64,000 nt of DNA, taken from NCBI GenBank assembly GCA_900188465.1, contig FZPE01000001.1, positions 62,001-126,000 on the forward strand, read 5' to 3'. The DNA is from Micrococcales bacterium KH10 (GTDB taxonomy: Bacteria; Actinomycetota; Actinomycetes; Actinomycetales; Cellulomonadaceae). The position numbers were made by a program, and so were the translations under genes. This document shows positions 8,145 to 61,984 of this stretch, piece after piece. Under the pieces are notes generated by a model that was given only the letters and a program-made list of their open reading frames with translations, did no database searches and was not told where the DNA came from. The first letter of the stretch is position 1, and each line of letters starts with the position of its first letter.

Positions 8145-8210
8145 CGCTGCGGTCCTGGTAGGACAATACGCCTGCGCTTGTGTGCGAAGATATTGGGTGG
8201 AAGTAACGAC

Positions 8211-8329
8211 ATGCTCTGGGATCGGTGAAAGCCCGAACCGGCGGTGATAGTCCGCGAACCGCGCGTCAGCGCGTGGTTGACTCGGTGAAATTCCGAGACC
8301 GACGGTAACAGTCCGGATGGGAAGAGCAT
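8211..8329 (+). ncRNA. FMN riboswitch (RFN element)
   Basis: The closing stem P1 is ATGCTCT (8211-8217) with AGAGCAT (8323-8329). Between them are the conserved RFN pieces: CCGGCGGTGATAGTCCGCGA (8238-8257), GGTGAAATTCCGA (8284-8296) and GACGGTAACAGTCCGGATGG (8301-8320). It precedes the riboflavin operon and should repress it when FMN is high. A G-rich Shine-Dalgarno (8386-8393) lies about 57 bases after P1 and could be sequestered, so translational control is likely. Confidence 0.95.
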
Positions 8330-8400
8330 TGGCGGTCGCGGCACTTTGGTGTCGCCATACTGCTATGCGCCCAGAGCCCTACCCCGGGGGGAGGCGCGTG

Positions 8401-60802: not shown

Positions 60803-60820
60803 TGTAAGATAAAACTTACA
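60803..60820. promoter_or_regulatory. ArsR-type operator over the -10 box
   Basis: TGTAAG-ATAAAA-CTTACA is a perfect inverted repeat. The putative -10 TAAGAT (60805-60810) lies inside it, so repressor binding would block transcription of the three-gene module that starts at 60844. Confidence 0.75.
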
Positions 60821-60843
60821 TAAGGAGGTGAGGTCTTACGGAT

Positions 60844-61194
60844 ATGGACGAGAACGGTGTTCACCATCTGCCGGATGTGCTCAGCGCACTCAATCACCCC
60901 TTGCGCCTCAATGTCATCGCTGCGCTGAGTCAAGAGCGCAAGTACGTCAGCGAGTTAGCGAGAGAACTAGGCATCAGTCGGCCGTTGCTCTATATGCATT
61001 TGGAAAGGCTTGAGAAGGCAGGACTCGTCCAAGGCTCTTTGGAACTGTCTGCCGAGGGAAAAGCGATCAAGTGGTATTCGCTGAAGCCGTTTGACATCCG
61101 GATCAACCTGGAAACGGTGCTGGCCGCTTTAGCTCAGACCCAACCTCCAACATCGCAAGGAAATGCCGAAATGAAAGGTAACCCCAATGAGTGA
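60844..61194 (+). CDS. ArsR-family repressor
   Basis: 116 residues. Winged helix: LPDVLSALNHPLRLNVIAAL, YVSELARELGISRPLLYMHL and LEKAGLVQGSLE, then AIKWYSLKPFDI. No cysteine-based metal site is present, so the ligand is unknown. An in-frame stop at 60829 fixes the ATG at 60844. AAGGAGG is 15 bases upstream, rather far, with GGTGAGG closer. It should repress itself through the palindrome at 60803-60820. The next gene starts within its last codons. Confidence 0.9.
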   Translation: MDENGVHHLPDVLSALNHPLRLNVIAALSQERKYVSELARELGISRPLLYMHLERLEKAGLVQGSLELSAEGKAIKWYSLKPFDIRINLETVLAALAQTQPPTSQGNAEMKGNPNE

Positions 61195-61429
61195 CTCATG
61201 GCTCGCGATCACATACGTCGCGATCTTCGCCGTTATCGGAGGTGTTGTGAGTGTGTGGCTGCTCGCGCGCGCCCGCAAGACTCAGTTACAACAGACTGCC
61301 GAAAATGCGGAACAGTACCGTGCTGCTCTTGCCTCACAGTCGGCAACTAATGAGCGGCTTGCCAAAGAACTGGCGGGAATCAACGAACGTCTCGCTGCTG
61401 TCGAGAAGCTGCTGCGCGATGTCGGCTAG
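61187..61429 (+). CDS. Small membrane protein with coiled coil
   Basis: 80 residues: one N-terminal transmembrane helix (WLAITYVAIFAVIGGVVSVW), then a cytoplasmic coiled coil rich in Ala, Glu and Gln (TAENAEQYRAALASQSATNE, RLAKELAGINERLAAVEKLL). It overlaps the ArsR gene by 8 bases and the next gene by 11 bases, so it is tightly coupled to both. I know no characterised relative. Confidence 0.8.
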   Translation: MSDSWLAITYVAIFAVIGGVVSVWLLARARKTQLQQTAENAEQYRAALASQSATNERLAKELAGINERLAAVEKLLRDVG

Positions 61430-61943
61430 TGACCGCGGCAGATCAGCGCGGTCGAGTGTCGTTCCTCGGTGGTTCTTCGCCGCCGCGGCTTTCTGGCTGC
61501 TGATCGCGGCGGCGGCCCTCGCCAACGCCACATCTCTGCCCGTCCGGGCGGATGCCCTTGCCGCATTGCTCGGTGCAACGGCTTTTATGCACGGACTCTA
61601 CTTCCGTCGTTGGCTAGTGGCGGGACCACTCGCGGGAATGGCTCTGCTCGCAGCTGCAGCGCTAGCCTTCGAAGTTGGGCTTGGTCACGACAACACCGTC
61701 TATCAGGGCGGTCCGGCTGACGCTATGGGAATCCGGGTGATCTGGATTTCCCTACTCGCCATCGTCAGCGCTGTTATCGCCTGGGCGTTCTGGCTCCACG
61801 GGCGCCTGTTGCGGTGGCGCCGTGAAAACCCGTCTGCTGTCACGCCGCTTGATGCGGCTGACGGCGGTGAAGTAGCACGGCTCACCAAAGCGGCTGCTGA
61901 GCGAGTCGGCTCGATCGAGGAACTGCTCAGCCCTTCGTCGTGA
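61419..61943 (+). CDS. Four-helix membrane protein of the ArsR module
   Basis: 174 residues with four hydrophobic helices: WFFAAAAFWLLIAAAALANA, ALAALLGATAFMHGLYF, LVAGPLAGMALLAAAALAFE and VIWISLLAIVSAVIAWAFWL. A cytoplasmic tail of about 45 residues ends EVARLTKAAAERVGSIEELL. The ATG at 61419 overlaps the preceding gene. No known family recognised. Together with the coiled-coil protein it may form a regulated membrane complex. A strong hairpin follows. Confidence 0.75.
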   Translation: MSASDRGRSARSSVVPRWFFAAAAFWLLIAAAALANATSLPVRADALAALLGATAFMHGLYFRRWLVAGPLAGMALLAAAALAFEVGLGHDNTVYQGGPADAMGIRVIWISLLAIVSAVIAWAFWLHGRLLRWRRENPSAVTPLDAADGGEVARLTKAAAERVGSIEELLSPSS

Positions 61944-61951
61944 GCACCCAG

Positions 61952-61984
61952 CGCGTACTGCCTGACACAGGCAGTACGCGGTGT
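61952..61984. terminator. Terminator between convergent membrane-module and marR genes
   Basis: CGCGTACTGCCTG (61952-61964) pairs perfectly with CAGGCAGTACGCG (61968-61980) around ACA: 13 bp, followed by GTGTTTAG. It lies between the two stops and can act in both directions. Confidence 0.9.

Follow-up and report, generated by a model that had tools for sequence, protein, structure and literature searches.

The window, i.e., the whole stretch of 64,000 nucleotides of Micrococcales bacterium KH10 DNA that was analysed, contains three overlapping open reading frames on the plus strand, as had been claimed in the preliminary description. The first gene (A, 60844–61194) encodes an ArsR-type winged-helix regulator of 116 amino acids, the second (B, 61187–61429) a single-pass membrane protein of 80 amino acids with a predicted cytoplasmic coiled-coil tail, and the third (C, 61419–61943) a putative four-helix membrane protein of 174 amino acids that appears to be lineage-specific. 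A and B share 8 bases (61187–61194), B and C 11 bases (61419–61429). Upstream of the trio lies a GyrI-like gene, and downstream a convergent gene of the MarR type. The GC content around A is 0.51–0.53 compared with 0.60 for the window, which together with the narrow spread of C fits, but does not prove, a recent acquisition; A is absent at E 1e-8 from the three other genomes of the genus. A clean empty site in a sister species was considered and rejected: of three such species, one has the GyrI-like neighbour (70% identity), but not in synteny. Elsewhere in the window, at 8209–8331 on the plus strand, there is an FMN riboswitch (RF00050, 97.6 bits).

The assignment of A to the ArsR-type helix-turn-helix proteins is borne out by its HTH_5 match (50.1 bits at a cut-off of 22, E 2.6e-13), and its structural model (pLDDT 87) resembles ArsR folds, with Phr of Pyrococcus and NolR as the nearest and SrnR (7p6f) also among the predicted fold neighbours. 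Across 26 sequences, VSELAR...SRPLLYMHLERLE hardly varies, and it is largely kept in the Bacillota proteins. Judged by model score and Cys ligands only, A does not qualify as an ArsR/SmtB metalloregulator (HTH_metalloreg, 45.2 against 55 bits), and since Cys is absent from 93 of 97 A proteins, that of the window included, thiolate-based metal sensing is unlikely. The PadR-like family PF03551 was likewise matched below its cut-off (21.7 against 27 bits).

B possesses one transmembrane helix according to hydropathy, followed by the coiled-coil tail. Lysine and arginine residues are more numerous behind the helix than before it in all 97 B proteins, and the tail is thus predicted to be cytoplasmic. 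Among 28 sequences, R45 and L76 never vary and R35, E73 and R77 hardly do, with E73, L76 and R77 located in the tail. Both membrane proteins had been described as unrecognised, and this holds: in Pfam and NCBIfam, no family is matched above cut-off by B, by the 28 B members or by C. At one locus (L079:1500–2155), two B-like genes stand in tandem behind one A. The four helices ascribed to C come from a model of low confidence (pLDDT 61).

The operator candidate is a palindrome of perfect six-base arms at 60803–60820 (TGTAAG-ATAAAA-CTTACA), which covers the -10-like hexamer TAAGAT (60805–60810, plus strand) of the presumed promoter, again as first described; the best -35 candidate of the window agrees with the consensus in 4 of 6 positions and is weak. 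A Shine-Dalgarno-like element, AAGGAGGTGA, precedes A at 60822–60831 (plus strand). Behind C, a terminator-like hairpin (61952–61980, plus strand) has a stem of 13 pairs, but its tail, GTGTTTAGTC, is T-poor and a scan yielded 2 such sites versus 2.1 in shuffled sequences; the "strong terminator" of the preliminary description is thus confirmed only in part.

The palindrome is the sole match in the window at up to two mismatches; yet 45 of 100 shuffles also yield one, so that the window alone is no proof of an operator, and it is the comparison across the family that supplies the proof. In the roughly 200 bases ahead of A, the pattern TGTMAG-N6-CTKACA (up to two mismatches) is present at 52 of the 64 close loci, at 21 of the 35 distant ones and at all 4 from Bacillota, compared with 1.2 to 2.5% of upstream sequences shuffled in two-base blocks; as the close set had served to derive the pattern by eye, the distant set is the fair test. 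A TTGACA-like -35 hexamer at 15–17 bases accompanies 44 of 77 proximal family operators (2 in the shifted control), which places the -10 box in the first arm of the operator and marks the palindrome as a repressor site. In the 2.8-Mb genome the exact operator occurs once, at the promoter of the operon itself, and 12 further sites with one mismatch do not exceed the 17 of a reversed control pattern, giving no sign of a wider regulon in this genome. Nineteen other genomes hold 18 exact sites (control: 6), nine of which were placed by coordinates at A–B promoters. Of the remaining nine, three, from genomes that belong to a single genus (G188, G208 and G227; loci L140, L142 and L148), have the core TGTAAG-N6-CTTACA in front of a different ArsR gene, and thus the motif marks a wider ArsR group.

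A second exact site is present on the Niallia plasmid, where no gene start is evident, and loci with a TrkA gene (L036, L038, L043, L044 and others) carry one about 150–185 bases upstream of A in addition to the proximal site. At the Bacillota loci L103, L104, L105 and L113, the operator ends about 2 bases ahead of the annotated ATG of A, which suggests either a leaderless mRNA or a wrongly assigned start.

Judged by gene content across genomes, the conserved unit is the A–B pair, shared by Actinomycetota and plasmids of Bacillota, and not the trio that had been put forward as the module. B lies directly downstream of A in 70 of 77 A-led loci, and A immediately upstream of B, on the same strand, in all 29 B-led loci other than the window; homologues standing singly among unrelated neighbours, named at the outset as what would speak against the trio, are thus seen for B in 0 of 29 and for A in 7 of 77 cases (L004, L005, L013, L017, L032, L051 and L111), and largely so for C as a member of the trio. 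Both genes are present in 97 of the 104 loci of the combined set, from which L073, L074 and L114 had been dropped as copies. An A-led contig scan gave 64 loci, in 58 of which the B profile places B directly behind A; the 58 relatives of the window from its own order gave two A loci, both with B; a B-like gene is present in every one of the eight plasmid records that the search with A brought up, of which five belong to Bacillota (Niallia, Peribacillus, Paenisporosarcina and two Exiguobacterium); and a phylum-wide A-led search of 396 genomes, in which at most 11 candidates of each were scored and which is no census, added three loci, two with B. Independently of A, a B-profile search of 296 genomes of the class pointed to 40 places in 35 genomes (own genome included), comprising 30 loci with that of the window, two more seen in L079 and L110, and eight weak or duplicate places kept outside the count.

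In the Bacillota, B is identified by its position, its anatomy and weak profile scores: with the A1 profile, three proteins reach 0.0016, 0.0002 and 0.006, and L104 and L105 give no match at 0.01. The B proteins of these last two share 44 and 47% identity with the B of L103. A–B junctions overlap by 4 bases (-4) in 55 of 96 cases and by one base (-1) in 18 of 96, and translation is therefore probably coupled. The evolutionary distances of A and B correlate at 0.83, the largest value of 500 permutations being 0.15. Six Streptomyces contigs (L016/L026, L028/L034, L024/L050, L013/L059, L017/L055 and L032/L058) each carry two A loci about 11–13 kb apart in opposite orientation, three of these pairs facing each other and three facing away.

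C has one clear homologue, in L033 (37% identity over 114 residues), which derives from an uncultured actinobacterium; among the loci seen, the window and L033 alone share C. They are sisters in both trees (support 96/88 for A and 100/95 for B, to be read with a long-branch warning). Further homologues of C were found neither in the 58 relatives of the window nor on plasmids, and 394 genomes of the class (own genome excluded) gave two partial matches inside long frames (E 3e-4 and 7e-4), which were taken as chance. A relationship of C with the Sensor family PF13796, found at the same position elsewhere, was rejected (no Pfam match; hhalign probability 0.15 versus 0.49 for the reversed control). 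A resemblance of its tail to the coiled coil of B is unsupported, the 11.0 and 10.8 bits obtained staying below the 11.7 of the best shuffled tail.

Elsewhere the place of C is taken by unrelated, often membrane-related genes, and by comparison of these sequences the third gene is interchangeable cargo. Among 89 loci with a third open reading frame (window and two duplicates included), Sensor-type genes occur at at least 21 loci (PF13796 in the three tested; 20 at -4 behind B) and, by reading of the frame list, often precede an ABC ATPase. TrkA genes follow at at least 12 loci (gap 129–232, perhaps a separate unit), zinc-type dehydrogenase genes at at least 11, MMPL genes at at least 8, a mixed cluster (tested member: an ABC ATPase) at at least 6, beta-lactamase-like genes at at least 5, and TauD genes at at least 2. 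At least 22 loci have singleton third genes, Toastrack at L101 among them, and two have antisense frames, i.e., a wrong frame. Family names were taken from tested representatives, and all these counts are lower bounds, since third genes were picked mechanically and in the wrong frame in some cases (e.g., L009, L033 and L054). A Streptomyces decoyicus plasmid (L150, NZ_CP108348 48000–68000) bears two A–B pairs within one natural-product-like cluster with genes for tryptophan halogenase, SbnA/SbnB, adenylation and MbtH; one pair precedes TauD, adenylation and MbtH, the other directly precedes Sensor, ABC ATPase and an FtsX-like permease.

From the position and conservation of the operator, we conclude that A very probably represses its own promoter, so that the compact, probably self-repressed unit initially described holds. 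It is likewise highly probable that A and B work together. Whether the pair forms a two-protein switch, in which the membrane partner of an autorepressor reports the state of the membrane to A, we regard as an evenly balanced question. In such a switch, a dimer of A would bind the palindrome over the -10 box and hold its own operon low, while B, residing in the membrane with its coiled-coil tail in the cytoplasm, would contact A; this contact is suggested by near-obligate pairing, gene overlap and co-divergence. Upon membrane disturbance or exposure to a membrane-active compound, B would, on the model of SdpI and SdpR, most likely keep A at the membrane and thereby cause de-repression. That B acts on A at all is slightly favoured, and sequestration as the means, an argument by analogy, is less probable than that. 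The genes behind B would constitute the response; here this would be C, co-expressed with the switch and either guarding the membrane or completing the sensor.

The frequently membrane-related cargo (Sensor, ABC, MMPL, TrkA) speaks for the switch. Against it count the seven A-led loci without B, which indicate that A can manage alone, and soluble cargo such as dehydrogenase, luciferase-like and TauD proteins, which gives no hint of a membrane signal; the same holds for the operator core in front of other ArsR genes and the weak profile scores of B in the Bacillota pairs. B could simply be the effector in stand-alone pairs. The regulated membrane module of the preliminary description fits the wider evidence, while the stress signal likened to it can only be supposed, Toastrack, a domain of envelope-stress operons, being carried by only one tested locus, L101.

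An ordinary ArsR operon, with A as the sole sensor of a ligand that is small or hydrophobic and with B and the third gene as effectors only, e.g., membrane stabilisers or exporters, is a possible reading to which we give a minor yet real chance. ArsR regulators usually sense their ligand themselves, the modelled fold of A is that of a complete ArsR protein, B is missing from 7 of 77 A-led loci, and the pairs on Bacillota plasmids have no evident further cargo. What is harder to reconcile with it is that the effectors differ between loci while B persists, that B, conserved in its charged tail, hardly has the size of an obvious effector, and that A has nearly no Cys.

Very improbable is a descent of the module from the phage-shock envelope-stress system with B as a true PspB homologue. 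The anatomy is alike (N-terminal transmembrane helix, cytoplasmic helix), the PspB model PF06667 is weakly matched by 2 of 28 B members and, with the best score, by the B of Peribacillus (E 0.001; 19.5 bits against a cut-off of 25.6), and a PspC model matches P0002 at E 0.00087 (19.2 of 104 bits). However, tails shuffled by heptads equalled or exceeded the hhalign scores of PspB in 2 of 20 (A4) and 3 of 20 (A1) controls, homology is accordingly unsupported, PF06667 was found in none of 100 genomes of the phylum, the E. coli control being positive, and a PspA- or PspF-like neighbour was not incidentally noticed; with the failed control, this support for a membrane-stress role is lost. A toxin-antitoxin-like pair, with B as a membrane-active peptide held in check by A, is hardly credible. 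The small size and overlap of the two genes, an operator directed at themselves and a patchy distribution (35 of 296 genomes, plasmids) would suit it, but the pair stands at the head of operons with transporter and enzyme genes and of a biosynthetic cluster, the conserved part of B is a charged coiled-coil tail, PADLOC has no match for B or C, and no viral or phage relative of A was found.

Returning to the switch, our broadest and more tentative proposal, which we put somewhat short of an even chance, is that A and B are a widespread, undescribed membrane-to-gene signalling dyad of Actinomycetota and Bacillota, or "one and a half component" system. B would report membrane damage or membrane-active natural products to A, and exporters, MMPL transporters, enzymes and natural-product genes would be placed under this portable switch; the sub-lineage of the window would then be a rare one that has C as a membrane effector of its own. 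The pair has stayed together in two phyla, its operator is readable and its cargo interchangeable, and it would make a simple system to test. If the proposal is true, the control of many exporters and MMPL genes that are still uncharacterised would become predictable, and inducers of natural-product loci might be traced, compare the pairs on the S. decoyicus plasmid. Searches of open PMC papers gave no description of an ArsR regulator with a B-like partner; the pair may be described elsewhere.

Apart from two-component systems and anti-sigma factors, few routes are known to lead from the membrane to a plain DNA-binding repressor. SrnR-SrnQ also combines an ArsR regulator with a partner protein, SrnQ being soluble. 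With the ArsR/SmtB metalloregulators, Phr and NolR, A shares the fold, the DNA-binding helix and an operator in its own promoter, but it differs in its scarcity of Cys, its sub-threshold HTH_metalloreg score and its near-obligate membrane partner. B shares with PspB an N-terminal transmembrane helix and a cytoplasmic helical tail of like length, whereas homology is unsupported, and regulator and neighbours differ. In Bacillus subtilis, according to a review, the membrane protein SdpI sequesters the autorepressor SdpR at the membrane (PMC1626106); an autorepressor and a membrane protein in one two-gene operon are common to both systems, SdpR representing an ArsR family named in NCBIfam, but SdpI is polytopic, whereas B has one transmembrane helix and a coiled coil, and A stays below the cut-off of the SdpR model (NF033789, 27.8 against 100 bits). 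In the HAAS-PadR dyad, proposed as an alternative to two-component systems, a stand-alone winged-helix regulator is always coupled to a partner suggested to convey a membrane-linked signal; the main text of the paper does not mention ArsR (PMC11237479). That regulator is PadR rather than ArsR, HAAS is a larger helical domain than B, and the list of ten families for P0002 (E up to 1) contains no HAAS-type partner (DUF1700, DUF1129, DUF1048). By analogy, the best reading of the A–B pair is that of a variant standing beside SdpR-SdpI and HAAS-PadR.
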